Origin: Rheinheimera lutimaris | GTDB lineage: Bacteria > Pseudomonadota > Gammaproteobacteria > Enterobacterales > Alteromonadaceae | Reading direction: 5' to 3' | Length of the DNA: 64,000 nt | NCBI RefSeq assembly: GCF_013283795.1 | Contig: NZ_JABSOD010000008.1 | Coordinates: 111,063 to 175,062, forward strand | In this document: positions 29,166-40,215 of the stretch, piece by piece | Layout: each line of letters begins with the position of its first letter | Position numbering within the stretch: position 1 is the first letter of the stretch | Made by a program: the position numbers and the translations under genes | The notes under the pieces: model-generated | What the model saw: only the letters and a program-made list of their open reading frames with translations | Told to the model about the DNA's origin: nothing | Databases searched by the model: none

Positions 29166-29217
29166 CCCCAACACCCTCCCCCCAATTTAGTTATAATCCT
29201 CAGCTTTGGACGCTACT

Positions 29218-30178: not shown

Positions 30179-31498
30179 ATGCAGCTTACTTTGCAAGCTT
30201 TTAATGATGGCCACTGGCAGGATGCTTTTGTTATTACCATCGCCTCCCCGGAGGCAGGTAAACATAGCAGGGTATCTTTGCAGGCCCGGACAACATATGC
30301 CGCAGCTTATTTTGATGAAACGGGCTCACGTAGTTTTTCGGCAATGTACCCGGTTAACCCTATGGACGTGTACAGCTTTACCAGTTGGCCCGGCGTGTTT
30401 GAAGATATTATGCCGATGGGCTACGCCCGCGCGCTGTGGCTGGATATGCTGGGCCTGCAGCAACAGCCGGTTGCCATGCAGGATATCACCTTATTGCAAG
30501 CCGGTACCATTGCACCTGTGGGTAACTTGCGCCTGAAAGAGTCTGTTGAAATGGCCGCAGTGCAACAGGTAACTGCACTGCAGCAAATGCGCTTTGAACA
30601 ACAGCAGGTAGTAGAGCGCAACCATGACTTTCTAAACTATGCCAGGCAGCGCGGCGCAGTGTCGGGCGGCGCAACAGGTGCCGGTGGTGCTGCACCTAAA
30701 TTGTTGGTCAGGCTAACCCCGCAGCGCGAGGTGTGGATAGACACCCTGCAAAACGATAACAGTGCAGATGAGCACTATCTGGTGAAGTTTCCACGCGGTA
30801 ACACTGCGATAGACCAGGATATTTTGCGCACGGAATACCACTACTACTGTGAATTGGCAGAGCTGGGGTTCGCCAGCATGGACGTTACCAAACTGCAGCT
30901 ACACGAAGGTAGCAAGCAGCCCTCGCTTTGGTTACCGCGCTTTGACAGGGCGTTTATTGCCGGTGCTGTACAACGTTATGGTGTTGAGTCTGTGTTCTCG
31001 CTGTTAAATAAACCCGCTGGCAGCCACTTGAAACATGAAGAGGTATTAAAAGCGCTTACACAAGTGGTTAATAGCCAAACTACGGCAGAATTAACCGCAG
31101 AATACCTGAAGCGTGATTTGTTAAACATCGTATTTGGTAACTCTGATAACCATGGCCGCAATATGGCGGTGCTAAAACATGCGGCGGTGGTATCACTGGC
31201 CCCTATTTATGACTTTGCCCCAATGAAGGCAGACCCGGAAGTGGTTATGCGTACAACCCATTGGAGCAACACATTTGAGCGCGGTGGAGATATTGACTGG
31301 CTGGAGTTATGTGACAGCCTGGCCTGTTATGGTGAACCTGAATTGTTTAAAACTGAATTACGCCAATTGGCCGCCAAACTACAACACTTAGCCGGGCGCT
31401 TAACCAAGCGCGGCGTACCGGCCAGTATCATGCAGATGCCGGTGATGGGCTTTGCTTATCTGGAAACCAGGCTGCAAAAGTGGGGATTATTAGCATGA
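30179..31498 (+). CDS. hipA: HipA-like serine/threonine kinase toxin
   Basis: A 439-residue HipA family kinase. The N-terminal subdomain (residues 1-115) precedes the kinase fold with a Gly-rich loop (GAVSGGATGAGGAAPKLLV, about 160-178). The catalytic Asp is D323 in FGNSDNHGRN and the metal-binding Asp is D345 in IYDFAPM. HipA of E. coli phosphorylates glutamyl-tRNA synthetase and causes growth arrest; related HipA proteins hit other targets, so the target here is not known. Unlike the classical hipBA order, the toxin gene comes first and the antitoxin follows with an ATGA overlap. Confidence 0.92.
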   Translation: MQLTLQAFNDGHWQDAFVITIASPEAGKHSRVSLQARTTYAAAYFDETGSRSFSAMYPVNPMDVYSFTSWPGVFEDIMPMGYARALWLDMLGLQQQPVAMQDITLLQAGTIAPVGNLRLKESVEMAAVQQVTALQQMRFEQQQVVERNHDFLNYARQRGAVSGGATGAGGAAPKLLVRLTPQREVWIDTLQNDNSADEHYLVKFPRGNTAIDQDILRTEYHYYCELAELGFASMDVTKLQLHEGSKQPSLWLPRFDRAFIAGAVQRYGVESVFSLLNKPAGSHLKHEEVLKALTQVVNSQTTAELTAEYLKRDLLNIVFGNSDNHGRNMAVLKHAAVVSLAPIYDFAPMKADPEVVMRTTHWSNTFERGGDIDWLELCDSLACYGEPELFKTELRQLAAKLQHLAGRLTKRGVPASIMQMPVMGFAYLETRLQKWGLLA

Positions 31499-31821
31499 CA
31501 CAACAAAAACGCCGGACGGACGCGGTGCCGGATCGCTTTGAACTAAAGCAACGTCTGGTGCAGCAAATGTTGTCGGGCAACACAACTCTGGGCCAGATTG
31601 GTAAAGCCTTACGCACCGGAGGCTTGCAGATGTCACAAACCGAAGTTTGCAAACTTACCGGTTTGAGCCGCCAGGTTGTCAGCGATATAGAAAACGATAA
31701 TGGCAACCCGCGGTTAGATAATTTACGCAGCTATTTTAAATTGCTCGGATTAGAACTGGCGGTGCTGCCACGCCAACGCACTGAACTGGATAGCTTGCTT
31801 AAGCCCTATACTGAGGTTTAA
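31495..31821 (+). CDS. hipB: HipB-like XRE-family antitoxin
   Basis: A 108-residue protein starting at the ATG that overlaps the hipA stop (31495-31498). An XRE helix-turn-helix is at about residues 47-85 (MSQTEVCKLTGLSRQVVSDIENDNGNPRLDNL). The ~40-residue N-terminal extension is unusual; classical HipB starts close to its HTH. It should neutralise HipA and bind the operator array at 30048-30153. The gene overlaps the end of the convergent gene by 23 bases. Confidence 0.88.
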   Translation: MTQQKRRTDAVPDRFELKQRLVQQMLSGNTTLGQIGKALRTGGLQMSQTEVCKLTGLSRQVVSDIENDNGNPRLDNLRSYFKLLGLELAVLPRQRTELDSLLKPYTEV

Positions 31822-34776: not shown

Positions 34777-34832
34777 TCCTGCCCTCACCCTACGGGCCAG
34801 CGGAGCTGTTCCAAATCGTTCCTAACCATTTG
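34777..34832. repeat. Left boundary repeat of the AT-rich island
   Basis: The first 35 bases (34777-34811, TCCTGCCCTCACCC then TACGGGCCAGCGGAGCTGTTC) are identical to 39852-39886. A partial hairpin follows (CAAAT...ATTTG). It belongs to the dispersed hairpin family also seen at 44671, 46905 and 48094. Base composition changes to AT-rich just to its right. Confidence 0.8.
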
Positions 34833-34879: not shown

Positions 34880-35626
34880 TCAATCAAGATCGTCGATAAA
34901 AGCAGGAAGCTGATTAAACCTTTTCAATAGCGAACGTATACGAGCGTTTAACTTAAGGTATTTGGAATAGACTTTTGGATTGCCATAGTGCTCTTCCAAC
35001 TTGGATAGCGTGATCCGGCTCATCTTGTGCAGCTTTTCTAAATTCTCTCTTCCTTCACCTCGTTGAAATAGATAAATACTTTCAGTATTTAGTACATCTT
35101 CAATGCGATTTGAGCAATCCACACCGAAGAAACCATCACCATAGTTGGTAAAACCGATACTTAATAAACCATTTTCACCCGTAAAATGCTCTACAATACT
35201 CCGGTCAAAAATAACTCTTGGCCAATCTGCATATTGGCTTTCAAGTTCATAGGCTTTAATCATAGCCGGGCCAAAGACGCCATCCGCTCGATGGTATAGC
35301 TTTCCATAAGCCATGCCGCCTCGTAGAGCGATAGCTTGGTTCAGATACGTATCCTGCAGCATTTTTACAGTAGCAGTAACCAGGATGTTCGATGCTTCTG
35401 CAACATCCTCGTTTTTAACTTCGATAGAGAGCACGATGCAATCGCTAAATGTAGTGGCAATAGGGCTGCTACCAATTTTTTCCATGTAATCCTTGCTGGA
35501 TTTAAGCTCACGCTTAATTTTTCGGATAACTTGATGAACGGCATCACAATTTTCTCCCTTTACCAAGGCCGAAAAGCCCAAAATATCAAGGAAAAGGCAG
35601 AGTCTGTTTTGGTAGGTGTGGCTCAT
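34880..35626 (-). CDS. Class III-type nucleotide cyclase, Pycsar-like
   Basis: A 248-residue protein. FLDILGFS carries D14 and TTFSDCIVLS carries D62, the spacing of the two metal-binding aspartates of class III cyclases; LRGGMAYGKLYH (R102) and VFGPAMIKAYELES...PRVIFD follow. This pattern is, to my recollection, that of the uridylate/cytidylate cyclases of Pycsar anti-phage systems. No TIR or membrane effector is adjacent, which a classical Pycsar locus would have. The ATG overlaps the stop of a 45-codon ORF. The C-terminal ~60 residues are basic and helical. Confidence 0.7.
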   Translation of the reverse strand: MSHTYQNRLCLFLDILGFSALVKGENCDAVHQVIRKIKRELKSSKDYMEKIGSSPIATTFSDCIVLSIEVKNEDVAEASNILVTATVKMLQDTYLNQAIALRGGMAYGKLYHRADGVFGPAMIKAYELESQYADWPRVIFDRSIVEHFTGENGLLSIGFTNYGDGFFGVDCSNRIEDVLNTESIYLFQRGEGRENLEKLHKMSRITLSKLEEHYGNPKVYSKYLKLNARIRSLLKRFNQLPAFIDDLD

Positions 35627-36089: not shown

Positions 36090-36491
36090 TTAAATCTTGG
36101 CAAACGCATGTGAAAAGTGCTTTTGATGTTTGTGAAATCGCTGCCCGCCGGCTGCATTTAAACGTTTTTGATTACAGTTGAAAGGCTTGATTACGTAACC
36201 CCAATTACCCTTTTGTGAGAAGTAGATCACGTAGTCGATTTTGGTATCAGTGTTTTTCCACTGGTTCTTCACCAGAACGGTATCATCAGTGGCTTCCAGT
36301 GACTTTATCTGAACCCGATAAAACACATGGCCGTCAGAAATGACCAAATCAGTTTTGCGACCATGGTCTAAAGCTGGGTGAAATACTTCCCAGCCATCAT
36401 TCATAAAGAGGCTGGCGGCATATTGCTCAAAAGAGTGGCTTTGGTAATGACGATGTTGTTCTGAAGCTAAAACAGAGGTTTTAAGTGGCAT
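36090..36491 (-). CDS. PD-(D/E)XK-like nuclease
   Basis: A 133-residue protein with a nuclease-like core: E22 in the first helix, GWEVFHPALDHGRKTD48, then FYRVQIK with Q61 and K63, i.e. the E...D...(E/Q)xK pattern of the PD-(D/E)XK superfamily (Holliday-junction-resolvase or intron-endonuclease-like branch). The C-terminal part is rich in Asn, Lys and His. It lies 83 bases upstream of the small basic gene, same strand. Cellular role unknown; a place in the island's defence module is inferred. Confidence 0.65.
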   Translation of the reverse strand: MPLKTSVLASEQHRHYQSHSFEQYAASLFMNDGWEVFHPALDHGRKTDLVISDGHVFYRVQIKSLEATDDTVLVKNQWKNTDTKIDYVIYFSQKGNWGYVIKPFNCNQKRLNAAGGQRFHKHQKHFSHAFAKI

Positions 36492-36998
36492 AGTTAATCC
36501 AAAAATTAATGCCGCTGCGTGTTTTGTGGCTACATCGCTAACGACAGAGACAACCTTTTGGTTTGTCCCTAAATAATTTAAGAAGCACTATACAACGTAT
36601 CGTTTGTATCGAGCAGTAACGGAGGCCAGTCCCGAATTTCTGAGATATCCTCATACTCTTCGTTAATACTGCTATCAGCCCCTCAGGGGCGTGTTTCCAG
36701 TTCGGTTGTAAACTTAAACCAGACACTGACGTTCGTCAATACAGCCAAGCTAAAATGCATTTGCTACCTTGGCCAGGCAATAATCACACGCCTGCACCAA
36801 TGGAGGCTTGAAATCTGTCAAAGCGCTTTTCGCTCTCACTTGGAGTTCTGTAAATAAGTGTACTACTGAAAGCTTTGTAATCGTACATGGAAGAATTTTA
36901 ATGGCTTTAAGCCTACGATGTGATTAATCTAATCAATTAACTACTCTCAATTCTAAGCAGCCTAACCAAATTTTTAACTTGGCTCGGAGCAAATATTT
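36492..36998. other. Intergenic region of the island without a convincing gene
   Basis: About 500 bases between the divergent nuclease and helicase genes. One 62-codon minus frame exists but has no recognisable features. The helicase has GGAGC 9 bases before its ATG. Several AT-rich stretches (from 36870 on) can hold the helicase promoter, but no single -35/-10 pair is clearly best. No tRNA, hairpin array or repeat was seen here. Confidence 0.5.
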
Positions 36999-38978
36999 AT
37001 GTCTTCGTATTGTTATTACTCTCCCGAAGCTCACGACCTGCTCAAGGATACACCACTCTTTGGCGTCATAAATTCATTTGCAGACCAGCGACAAAAGCAA
37101 ATTTATATACTCAGACAGCCATTATCTAAAAATGACGCTACATATGACTATGAGAATTCCGTAGTGTTATTTACGTCTGGCATGAAACCTTGCTTCATAA
37201 ACCTTGGCGGAGACGAAGAGGAGTTTGAAGAGTTCACAGATGAGTTCACTGACGATTTATCTTATCTTTCAGAGAAGTTTAAATATAAAGACAAAATTGG
37301 TCGTAGAAAAAAATGGCAGGCTTTATTTGTAAGCAGCGACATTTCTAGCTTTAATTTCAGCTTAATCGAAACCGAAAATAGTTCAGAAAAAATCCTAAGC
37401 GACCTTATAACATCACTTGTTATTGGCAGCATAAACGATATATCTACAATAAATATTGATGCTGACAATTTACTAGACAAAGTAAAATCAAAAATAATCC
37501 TTTTTGATACCGACCAAACAGAATTTGTATTTAGAACCGGCGGTGATAAAAAATATATCATACAAGGACTTGCGGGTTCTGGGAAAACAGAACTCCTCCT
37601 TCATAAAATGAAGGAAATATATTCAAAGCGTGATTCAAAGATCGCATTCACTTGTTACAACAGAATACTTGCTTCATCAATGAAATCTCGAATTCCAGAC
37701 TTTTTTGATTTTATGAGAGTTGAAAAACAGATAGATTGGAATAACAAGCTTTTCTGTTTTCATGCATGGGGAAGTGGGAGAGATCCTTATTCAGGCATGT
37801 ACAGATATATATGTCACGCCTACGGAATAACATTCGGTACATTTCAAGCAGGAAGTTTTGACTATTTATGTCAAAAAGCAATTAAAGAAATAAATCAATT
37901 AACAACTGAATTTAATCAACTTTTTGACTATGTTTTCATTGATGAAAGCCAAGATTTTCCTGAAAGCTTTATTGAGCTTTGCTGCCTTGTCACATCAAAA
38001 AAAGTATATGTCGCGGGTGATGTATTCCAGAATATATTTAGCCCGATAGATGGGATGGTGTTTAAGTCTGACTTAGTACTAAGAAAGTGTTATCGCACAG
38101 ATCCTAGAAACTTAATGTTTTCTCATGCCCTCGGTATGGGGCTATTCGAAAGGCCGGTTCTAAGATGGTTGACTCAACAAGAGTGGGATGCTTGCGGCTA
38201 CAGATACTCCGAATCAAACGATAGAGTGCAGTTATCTAGGGCACCATTAAGAAGGTTTGAAGATATCCCTACTGAACATGCCAGTACCGTATTGCACACG
38301 ATTCCTAGCTATGCAGACACAACAGAGCAAATCTTACAAACAATAGAAGACATAATCAAAAGAAACAAGACTGCAACAATAGATGACTTTGCAGTCATAC
38401 TTCTAGATAGAGATCAGTATATCTACAACGTTATCAATGAAATAAGCAAAGGTATCTATGACAGGTTTAATTGGAAAGTAAATATCTCACATGAATCAAA
38501 GATGCGAGTTCCTGGTAGATTTTTTATATCCAACGTTAACAATGCGAAAGGCCTCGAGTTCCCTTTTGTAATCTGTGTAACATTCAACCTTAATAAAACA
38601 AGAACATTTCGAAATGCACTATACACGATGATGGCAAGGTCTTTTTTAGAAAGCCATCTGTTACTTGGCATTAATAGAGACAGCGAAGCATTTAAAAGCA
38701 TTGAAAACGGTTTGGCATTCATAAATAAAAACAATTTTATGGATGTTAGGCTGCCTGAACCAGTCGAAATTGAAAACCAGAGACAAATGATATTAGTCGA
38801 TGAGAAACCAACTCTGAAACAGCAAATCACGGATTTTTGTGTGGAGCGAGGGGCAACACCTCGTCATATTGCTAAAATGGTGGCAAAAGTAACAAAGAGT
38901 ATAGGTGACGATGATTATGATGAAGAATATCTCGAAAGATTGTTGGATCTCGAATTCTCGAGGACAAAACAATTTTGA
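36999..38978 (+). CDS. SF1 (UvrD/DUF2075-type) helicase-like ATPase
   Basis: A 659-residue protein. The N-terminal ~180 residues are unassigned. Walker A is GLAGSGKT (190-197), Walker B is VFIDESQDF with D315-E316, motif III-like VAGDVFQNIF, motif IV-like LRKCYRTDPRNL, and motif V/VI-like NNAKGLEFPFVICVT followed by YTMMARS. This is the set of a superfamily 1 helicase. Codons are AT-rich (AAA, ATA, AAT), unlike the flanking core genes, indicating transfer. The stop overlaps the TTG start of the next gene, so both act together. Role in anti-phage defence is inferred. Confidence 0.8.
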   Translation: MSSYCYYSPEAHDLLKDTPLFGVINSFADQRQKQIYILRQPLSKNDATYDYENSVVLFTSGMKPCFINLGGDEEEFEEFTDEFTDDLSYLSEKFKYKDKIGRRKKWQALFVSSDISSFNFSLIETENSSEKILSDLITSLVIGSINDISTINIDADNLLDKVKSKIILFDTDQTEFVFRTGGDKKYIIQGLAGSGKTELLLHKMKEIYSKRDSKIAFTCYNRILASSMKSRIPDFFDFMRVEKQIDWNNKLFCFHAWGSGRDPYSGMYRYICHAYGITFGTFQAGSFDYLCQKAIKEINQLTTEFNQLFDYVFIDESQDFPESFIELCCLVTSKKVYVAGDVFQNIFSPIDGMVFKSDLVLRKCYRTDPRNLMFSHALGMGLFERPVLRWLTQQEWDACGYRYSESNDRVQLSRAPLRRFEDIPTEHASTVLHTIPSYADTTEQILQTIEDIIKRNKTATIDDFAVILLDRDQYIYNVINEISKGIYDRFNWKVNISHESKMRVPGRFFISNVNNAKGLEFPFVICVTFNLNKTRTFRNALYTMMARSFLESHLLLGINRDSEAFKSIENGLAFINKNNFMDVRLPEPVEIENQRQMILVDEKPTLKQQITDFCVERGATPRHIAKMVAKVTKSIGDDDYDEEYLERLLDLEFSRTKQF

Positions 38979-39619
38979 CGGCATATATCTACAATAGGGT
39001 TCCTCAACACATAATTGACGGATTTCGTGCATCCAGAACTGTTTTTGACCATCTACACAATGTGTTTCAGGTATGTGAGTGCATTAATTATTACAGCGAG
39101 CTCAAAGCATCAAATTTACGTGATGGCTTCGATATAATCGTATTTGGCGCACATAATCCGAGAGTATTGGTTAGAAGAGCTAATGGGTTTAGCTGTATTC
39201 AACTTCCCTTTCAAATCATTGATGATGGGGAGACTATTTCACTTGTTCTCGAAGATTTCGGCGAAATAGTTGATGGAAGATTTACATCTCTAATGAGATC
39301 TGCTTTAAACACAGCATTGGACAGCAATATTTCTACGGACGAAATAGCACTCACCTTAGCAGAATCCTTTGGTTTAGATGTTCAGACAGCATGCCTTTAC
39401 TGCGATATTTTCTTTCACTTAGTGTCACAAGATCATGGCTACTTTAGGTTTGATGACGACGAGGAAAATCAGAATGGTGATATTCACCCGAGATTTCACT
39501 TAGATTTTTTTCTCAACAATACGTCGTCTTTTAAAATTGGGCTTGACCGCCCCATAGAAATCGAAGCCATCGTTTCGATGTTAGACCCATCTAAACCCAA
39601 ATGGTATTTACGAAAATGA
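38975..39619 (+). CDS. Unknown partner of the helicase
   Basis: A 214-residue protein starting at a TTG that overlaps the helicase TGA (TTGA, 38975-38978), so it is translated by coupling. Features: DGFDIIVFGAHNPRVLVRR (about residues 49-67), an acidic linker DDDEENQNGD (about 165-174), and HPRFHLDFFL just after. I do not recognise a family; the HPRFHLDF segment resembles a His-containing motif in some defence-associated proteins but this is only an impression. AT-rich like the helicase gene. Confidence 0.65.
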   Translation: MTAYIYNRVPQHIIDGFRASRTVFDHLHNVFQVCECINYYSELKASNLRDGFDIIVFGAHNPRVLVRRANGFSCIQLPFQIIDDGETISLVLEDFGEIVDGRFTSLMRSALNTALDSNISTDEIALTLAESFGLDVQTACLYCDIFFHLVSQDHGYFRFDDDEENQNGDIHPRFHLDFFLNNTSSFKIGLDRPIEIEAIVSMLDPSKPKWYLRK

Positions 39620-39948
39620 TTACTTGATAAGAGCATAAGTTACTTCAGAACATCTGCAAAAGCGGATTGAGACCCGCATTATCAACACTAAAAATAGAAG
39701 TTATTTCAAATTTCTGGCAATCACATAAAGATCAACTTGCTATAAATGTGCTACATACGCGCTACACCAACAAATTTAAGACATAAAAAAGGGCTCGATT
39801 TCAGCTAAGACCTTGATTTATATGGCATAACCGATAGGATTATTCGGACTGTCCTGCCCTCACCCTACGGGCCAGCGGAGCTGTTCAAAAACGTTCCTGA
39901 CGTTTTTGTCGAACCTAACGGTTCGCCTCCTACGGGGCTATAAACGCA

Positions 39949-40138: not shown

Positions 40139-40215
<77 letters not shown>

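Follow-up and report, generated by a model that had tools for sequence, protein, structure and literature searches.

STM2767/STM2766, a widespread helicase-partner gene pair beside a tRNA-Arg gene of Rheinheimera lutimaris: a predicted anti-phage system and probable remote sister of Helicase+DUF2290

Gabija combines the OLD-family protein GajA with the UvrD-like superfamily 1 (SF1) helicase GajB, and Hachiman combines HamA, a DUF1837 protein, with HamB, a Ski2-type superfamily 2 (SF2) helicase. The layout of Hachiman has been presented as that of a helicase sensor with a small effector (PMC12278908), and a helicase encoded with a DUF2290 protein, the Helicase+DUF2290 (Rst) system, is reported to inhibit phage T7 specifically (Rousset 2022, PMC9122126). 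In group III Schlafens, a linker domain precedes the SF1 helicase (PMC8875196). The subject of this work is the gene pair STM2767/STM2766 in a 64,000-nucleotide (nt) stretch of the Rheinheimera lutimaris genome (contig NZ_JABSOD010000008.1, positions 111,063 to 175,062; hereafter the window), in which an SF1 helicase gene is followed by the gene for a small partner protein on an AT-rich island. The pair is considered likely to constitute a two-component anti-phage system.

The helicase matches NCBIfam NF053713 (STM2767 family DEAD/DEAH box helicase) with 864.4 bits (cut-off 550), its residues 3-651 aligning to positions 2-660 of 665, and exceeds the cut-offs of both Pfam UvrD_C_2 and UvrD-helicase, two families matched by 14 of 14 STM2767 family members. 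Its Walker A (GLAGSGKT at 190), DExQ (IDESQ at 314), YR (KCYRT at 363) and KGxE (KGLEF at 517) motifs, together with GDVFQ at 340 and the UvrD matches in Pfam, identify it as an SF1 (UvrD/Rep-like) helicase. A search of its profile against PDB sequences returned nothing at 1e-5, and the weak matches up to E 10 were UvrD, Rep, an archaeal ATPase and others. The partner matches NF053714 (STM2766) with 190.8 bits (cut-off 70; residues 3-213 on 2-207 of 207), and because this match to a curated family reaches E 2.4e-56, the partner is a genuine family member and no chance open reading frame (ORF). STM2766 is its only match in NCBIfam, Pfam and PADLOC give none at E up to 1, and in PHROGs each of the two proteins matches a family of unknown function. 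The partner gene begins at a TTG codon and shares 4 nt with the end of the helicase gene; RefSeq annotation uses the names STM2767/STM2766 in some E. coli genomes, where order and overlap are the same as in the window and no difference was found. A first-pass annotation made from the letters alone had described the three ORFs of the locus, their coordinates and strands, the helicase motifs and the TTG overlap, all of which are as described; it had also called the partner unrecognised and the set unmatched to any name, which no longer holds, as NCBIfam names both proteins. The pair is thus already named by NCBI and functionally blank, being known by its names and its pairing. A search of open-licence full text found no function of STM2766 or STM2767 in print, the texts matched being Salmonella typing or genomics papers that name STM2767 and not STM2766, and the main text of DefensePredictor (PMC13092281), which was the part searched, contained no match to the terms sought.

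STM2767 and STM2766 form a widespread, patchy and obligate gene pair. A genome scan with one genome per species and a 14-sequence helicase alignment gave 154 confirmed relatives, and in 78 of the best 80 of these loci the partner profile located STM2766 directly downstream of the helicase, the query having been built from partner-bearing loci, so that a helicase clade lacking the partner could escape it. Both remaining loci (L040 and L113) run into a contig end. The spacing is at most 20 nt in 75 of the 78, with overlap in 53 and a distance of exactly -4 in 31, values that use longest-ORF starts and possibly overstate some overlaps. By record title, the carriers belong to Pseudomonadota, Bacteroidota, Firmicutes, Cyanobacteria, Nitrospira, Spirochaetes, Fibrobacter and Campylobacterota, and many of the records are metagenome bins. 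On viral contigs, the helicase lies just upstream of the partner in all 15 distinct contigs that hold the partner, some of them near-copies, the helicase of L019 and L029 lying in two open pieces and the partner of L023 being split; on plasmids (eight records), the same order is found in 6 of 6 opened loci, the partner of L007 being interrupted by IS256. The first-pass annotation had allowed that the small gene might occur without the helicase in most genomes, and these viral and plasmid loci point the opposite way. In E. coli, the pair is matched by DNA in 37 of 5426 genomes, all chromosomal, 32 of which cover at least 80% of both genes; in the four carriers that were opened, two of them nearly alike, it occupies prophage regions directly after a tail-fibre assembly gene, and in one of these an AbiTii gene adjoins it. 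A phage portal-like gene, read by eye, adjoins the pair in L022. STM2766 was detected in 1 of 274 genomes of a class sample and in 1 of 398 of a phylum sample, in each case the genome of R. lutimaris itself, neither gene was found in 24 same-genus relatives and the further genome G311 (0/25, with the own genome as positive control), and a search of phage records gave no match.

Among the described systems, Helicase+DUF2290 is like the window pair in having the helicase first and then a partner of about 220 amino acids. The closest PADLOC model to the window helicase is its helicase model, PDLC03002, at 113.1 bits with a best stretch of 159-346 only, whereas the helicases of Helicase+DUF2290 itself reach 1054-1120 bits and stand beside DUF2290 in all three DUF2290 genomes of the class sample (n = 274). 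PF10053 had no match in the R. lutimaris genome, and the window partner matched neither PF10053 nor PADLOC PDLC02998/02999 at E up to 1. The pair lies outside Helicase+DUF2290 proper, since it fails both the defining partner models and the helicase model. The suggestion in the first-pass annotation that it might prove to be a known system stands in so far as NCBIfam names both proteins and falls on the partner in PADLOC; the PADLOC search that it had proposed gave no partner match and, for the helicase, this distant match to the Helicase+DUF2290 helicase. Beyond these models, profile comparison with hhalign joins STM2767 to the DUF2290-linked helicases (prob 99.9, E 8.6e-37, 554 columns), from which their common ancestry appears clear, the N-terminal domains of the two families being unrelated by sequence alone (prob 0.4). 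For the partners, STM2766 and DUF2290 align over 61 C-terminal columns (prob 84, E 7.6e-6); the score of 41.9 compares with a maximum of 30.2 (next 21.3) in 200 shuffles of the DUF2290 columns, and six other control alignments or segments reached at most 14.8. The C-termini have a common core, R-x-D-x-(D), H-P-x-x-H and K/R (in the form RxDx(D)...HPxxHL...(K/R)), of which DUF2290 keeps R, D, H and H, with T in place of D177 and R in place of K187 of STM2766. On these alignments, common ancestry of the two partner families appears probable, and STM2767/STM2766 is probably a remote sister of the anti-T7 system. No DUF2290 loci were found in viral contigs.

A separate observation concerns a 756-amino-acid protein related to the PADLOC Helicase model (score 265 bits; L014, 1438-3708, minus strand) in a genome without a DUF2290 match, whose N-terminal stretch EPDILLIDRELGILVIEVKSL reads like an intact PD-(D/E)XK/NERD motif.

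Gabija likewise couples a UvrD-like SF1 helicase to a partner gene, but its GajB models score at most 32 bits on the window helicase, and its GajA is of the OLD family, in contrast to a partner with 0 Pfam and 0 PADLOC matches. Hachiman can be likened to the pair in its layout of a helicase and a small effector; it differs in that the window helicase matches best to UvrD-type SF1 models and the partner has no DUF1837 match. The pair is neither Gabija nor Hachiman, membership failing on the partner.

The genomic setting of the pair is that of an exchangeable island. The stretch between the outer ends of two 55-nt direct repeat copies, 91% identical and 5075 nt apart, has 39.3% G+C against 51.1% for the window and stops shortly short of the tRNA-Arg(CCG) gene; helicase and partner have 36.3% and 38.8% G+C compared with 53.5% and 54.2% for two flanking genes, and their third-position values are 0.33 and 0.35 versus 0.60. 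Sister-genome alignments of the relatives G291 and G287 stop at 34778, at the left repeat. G291 keeps both flanks (the left at 88%, to 34778; the right, which includes the tRNA, at 82%) and the neighbouring PD-(D/E)XK gene (in a 746-nt block at 86%), and the place of the pair is taken there by a 299-amino-acid ORF followed by SIR2 and HerA genes (PADLOC, 599 and 501 bits); the common block stops at 36834, short of the helicase. The AT-richness that the first-pass annotation had noted is confirmed, and the coupled helicase and partner in a transferred island that it had proposed are borne out by the 78 of 80 loci and by the island swap in G291.

This swap belongs to a wider pattern. Stretches of up to 10 kb upstream of the tRNA-Arg gene were collected from 19 of the 24 same-genus relatives (L155 and L158-L176, 20 stretches; G275, G276, G278, G284 and G293 were left out), and a PADLOC scan of cargo at 1e-20 took in 20 proteins of nine loci and four G291 proteins, so that 11 relatives were examined and the other eight unscanned. 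Gene content differs in nearly all 19 relatives; across the genus, the region upstream of tRNA-Arg(CCG) is variable. Known defence genes lie there in 7 of the 19: SIR2-HerA in G291 and in G295, the latter assigned by 82-83% identity to G291; E1-E2 in G287, about 5 kb off and beyond a TnsB-like transposase (L159); IetS and IetA in G277; an Ankyrin-system protein about 4 kb off the tRNA in G279; SspC and SspA in G296; and type I restriction with RtcR in G290. In G285, the site carries an integrase and a Phage_GPA replication gene. Window positions 36747-36864 (118 nt) are 90.7% identical to the 3' end of that Phage_GPA gene, the remnant as a whole (36741-36864) matches G277 at 87.0%, and the Phage_GPA ORFs of G285 and G277 match PF05840 at 291 and 294 bits; given this remnant, the island appears to be the cargo-bearing end of a degraded P2-like integrative element. 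The best explanation of the locus is that the pair is exchangeable cargo beside the tRNA-Arg gene. Because known defence genes lie near the same tRNA in seven of the 19 sister genomes, a defence role of the pair is likely and well supported by its context; the defence role put forward in the first-pass annotation has thereby gained a hotspot context and stays a predicted one.

The partner offers a candidate for the effector of such a system. Across 72 sequences, its invariant residues are R63, Y156, R158, D162, H171, P172, H175, D177, K187 and G189, with D160 nearly so, and in the AlphaFold2 (AF2) model (predicted local distance difference test, pLDDT, 93.9; predicted template modelling score, pTM, 0.89) all of them except R63 map to the final three strands (156-161, 174-179 and 185-190) or directly next to them, mostly at alternate positions, an arrangement in this C-terminal sheet like that expected of an active site. 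A mechanism can be tentatively proposed in which the helicase, with a nuclease-like and probably inactive N-terminal domain and an SF1 motor, would engage abnormal DNA arising from phage replication, and its ATP-driven movement on DNA would switch on STM2766. The C-terminal sheet with its R-x-D-x-D...H-P-x-x-H-x-D...K set would then be the effector, most likely a nucleic-acid-cutting site, which would stop phage growth or kill the cell. We infer this sensor role of the helicase because of the obligate pairing, the presence of an SF1 motor, the conserved polar residues of the partner and the hotspot setting; the two proteins would form a complex in which the helicase senses the signal and then activates catalysis by STM2766, much as in Gabija or Hachiman (PMC12278908), and would so protect the cell from phage.

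The strongest competitor to this mechanism, possible albeit clearly on the unlikely side, is that the partner is a regulator or DNA-recognition subunit and that the helicase acts alone or with a host nuclease. The middle part of the partner model is a helical unit resembling a helix-turn-helix (HTH), and the first four rows of the VIA search are DNA-binding proteins (IHF twice, Mu transposase Ibeta, and Nur, a homologue of Fur), with Z of 4.8-5.2 across 63-99 residues. Against the regulator role, these Z values fall within the range that the tool calls common, and nearly all invariant residues are located in the C-terminal sheet, outside the helical unit.

The N-terminal domain of the helicase (AF2 model, pLDDT 87.3) provides a further structural lead. 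In Foldseek, Schlafens fill rows 1-12, the best at E 0.011 and none under 0.001, and in VIA, rows 1-11 are Schlafens with Z 4.9-6.0 over 109-133 residues and a root-mean-square deviation of 4.2-5.5, scores within the range that the tool calls common, the next row having Z 3.5. The matched region, residues about 380-560 and N-terminal to the Schlafen helicase, corresponds to the Schlafen linker domain; the best matches are the linker regions of the group III proteins SLFN5, SLFN11, SLFN12 and SLFN14. Lower VIA rows (Z 2.1-2.9) include VRR_NUC, MUS81-EME1 and EcoT38I, which we take to be PD-(D/E)XK-type nucleases. Sequence comparison lends the likeness no support: PF09848 gives 12.8 bits on the window helicase, below its cut-off of 24, and matches 9 of 14 STM2767 family members at E up to 0.1 (best 5.7e-4), and three bacterial PF09848 helicases compared with STM2767 by profile give prob 5. 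No D...(D/E)xK set is recognisable by eye in the domain, and no Schlafen core nuclease was found, the roughly 166 residues before the motor matching the linker instead; no Schlafen occurs among the structural matches listed for the partner model. The likeness is a weak, model-based lead only. It is doubtful, though conceivable, that the pair represents a bacterial immune system founded on the linker-plus-helicase half of vertebrate group III Schlafens, with an inactivated PD-(D/E)XK-type N-terminal domain and a separate nuclease effector of novel fold in STM2766.

Several findings weigh against a defence role, against the proposed nuclease effector or against the kinship on which they lean. 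The structural search with the partner model gave no confident match (Foldseek best E 0.44 in the PDB and 0.079 among viral structures), its profile had no match in PDB sequences at E up to 1, and since no confident structural match exists, the nuclease role of the partner is drawn solely from its conserved polar residues. The similarity of the partner to DUF2290 is confined to the 61 C-terminal columns, its probability falling to 64 with the roles exchanged and to 46 with a smaller partner alignment, and the loss of D177 and K187 in DUF2290 argues against one common catalytic site. In PADLOC, the window partner has no match, and two other family members have none or a 12-bit, chance-like one. 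At the tRNA-Arg site, 4 of the 11 relatives with examined cargo show nothing beyond a transposase: the scanned proteins of G289, G281 and G274 (L165, L166 and L171) have no PADLOC match, and those of G282 (L161) only the TnsB-like transposase; the cargo of the first three may hold further systems. A PADLOC scan of the proteins encoded right beside the genome loci (127 of the 143 candidates that a crude ORF caller had predicted, those longer than 700 amino acids having been dropped) revealed no recurring defence family, a result that carries little information because the tool tallies by family and each had at most two members. Finally, no phage test of the STM2767/STM2766 family was found in the open-licence literature searched.

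An unlikely alternative to defence is that mobile elements such as plasmids and P2-like satellites use the pair for replication or maintenance, the helicase acting in the replication or repair of the element itself and STM2766 as the helicase loader. Its occurrence on plasmids and prophages, the Phage_GPA replication-gene scar adjoining the window copy and the UmuC or Y-family polymerase genes that neighbour it on two plasmids are in keeping with such a module; however, the carriers are very diverse, ranging from E. coli prophages through plasmids, both conjugative and non-mobilizable, to contigs of Bacteroidota and Firmicutes, and unrelated defence systems occupy the same site in sister genomes, which would be unexpected for an element's own replication module. 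Slightly less probable still is a toxin-antitoxin module, one protein being toxic and restrained by the other, with phage protection as a side effect, which would fit the obligate and often overlapping two-gene layout as well as the PemK/MazF-type toxin and HicB antitoxin genes near the pair on two plasmids and the toxin-antitoxin genes near DUF2290 pairs on two plasmids. We know of no named toxin-antitoxin type with a helicase-first order and a 659-amino-acid motor, which counts against this alternative, as does a partner whose only match among Pfam, PADLOC and NCBIfam is STM2766. That the whole stretch, including the PD-(D/E)XK gene, is one three-gene defence system, as the title of the first-pass annotation suggests, is very improbable: the three genes share one AT-rich island and the nuclease gene is retained in the sister island, but G291, G277 and G311 hold this gene, in the first two beside unrelated cargo, without either gene of the pair anywhere (both searches positive in the own genome), the block common to G291 ends before the helicase, and no such nuclease gene is annotated in 10 opened annotated pair loci, whose unnamed proteins were not searched.

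The features of the locus are collected below.

Table 1. Positions of the gene pair and neighbouring features in the window
Feature	Position	Strand	Basis or remark
SF1 helicase, 659 aa, NCBIfam NF053713 STM2767 family	36999..38978	+	864.4 bits; SF1 motifs; UvrD Pfam
STM2766 family helicase-associated protein, 214 aa, NCBIfam NF053714	38975..39619	+	190.8 bits; AF2 model
N-terminal domain of helicase, residues 1-166	36999..37496	+	model weakly like Schlafen linker domain
PD-(D/E)XK_5 protein, 133 aa, island neighbour	36090..36491	-	PF11645; not a member of the helicase module
Unclassified 248-aa ORF in island	34880..35626	-	phrog_23933; not a member of the helicase module
55-nt direct repeat, left copy	34777..34831	+	repeat alignment; sister synteny stops at 34778
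55-nt direct repeat, right copy, near tRNA	39852..39906	+	repeat alignment
tRNA-Arg (CCG), right-hand anchor of the genus-variable site	40139..40215	-	site comparison in sister genomes
Phage_GPA 3'-end remnant, 118-123 nt	36741..36864	+	90.7% to G285, 87.0% to G277

The 133-amino-acid protein matches Pfam PDDEXK_5 with 30.7 bits (cut-off 26.1). Its gene flanks SIR2-HerA in G291 and a replication gene in G277 and occurs twice in G311; because these relatives carry it without the pair, it is a bystander and no component of the module. In the 248-amino-acid ORF, the stretches FLDILGFS, FSDCIV and VFGPAMIKAYELE read by eye as a nucleotide-cyclase-like fold; nothing exceeds a Pfam cut-off (best E 0.11), the matching PHROGs family is of unknown function, and G286 has a copy with 85% identity upstream of the same tRNA. 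Its identification as AbiEii was rejected (16 bits over 36 residues), as was that of a distant ORF at 29206 as CRISPR Cse1 (17.2 bits, below the cut-off of 24.7).

Other cargo at the tRNA-Arg site includes the 299-amino-acid ORF that precedes SIR2-HerA in G291 (L155, 3954-4853, plus strand) and G295 (L162), the two copies being 90% identical; neither Pfam nor PADLOC matches it at E up to 0.01, and it is possibly a third gene of the SIR2-HerA system. G285 and G286 have a two-gene cargo in common (L158, 9415-11952, and L164, 7213-9714, both minus strand; 73% and 87% identical), which consists of a 472-amino-acid ORF that Pfam does not match at E up to 0.01, together with a 372-amino-acid NA37 nucleoid-associated protein. 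Elsewhere in the window, at 30179-31821 on the plus strand, a HipA-like kinase gene (PF07804, 98 bits) is followed by an overlapping HTH gene, the kinase standing first and the regulator second, and G288 (92% and 86%) and G292 (63% and 62%) carry copies of both genes near their tRNA-Arg sites.

STM2767/STM2766 is thus a named and functionally blank pair, distributed over several phyla and E. coli prophages, that can now be placed in a defence hotspot. If its predicted role is correct, an entire clade escapes the PADLOC models searched, and STM2766 and DUF2290 would offer, in their common R-x-D...HPxxH core, concrete residues to mutate in either system. Should the Schlafen-like linker hold, the helicase would provide a link to vertebrate antiviral helicases, and if the pair is indeed built on that Schlafen half, STM2767/STM2766 and Helicase+DUF2290 would form a superfamily of split helicase-effector systems, representing an early form of the vertebrate antiviral architecture.

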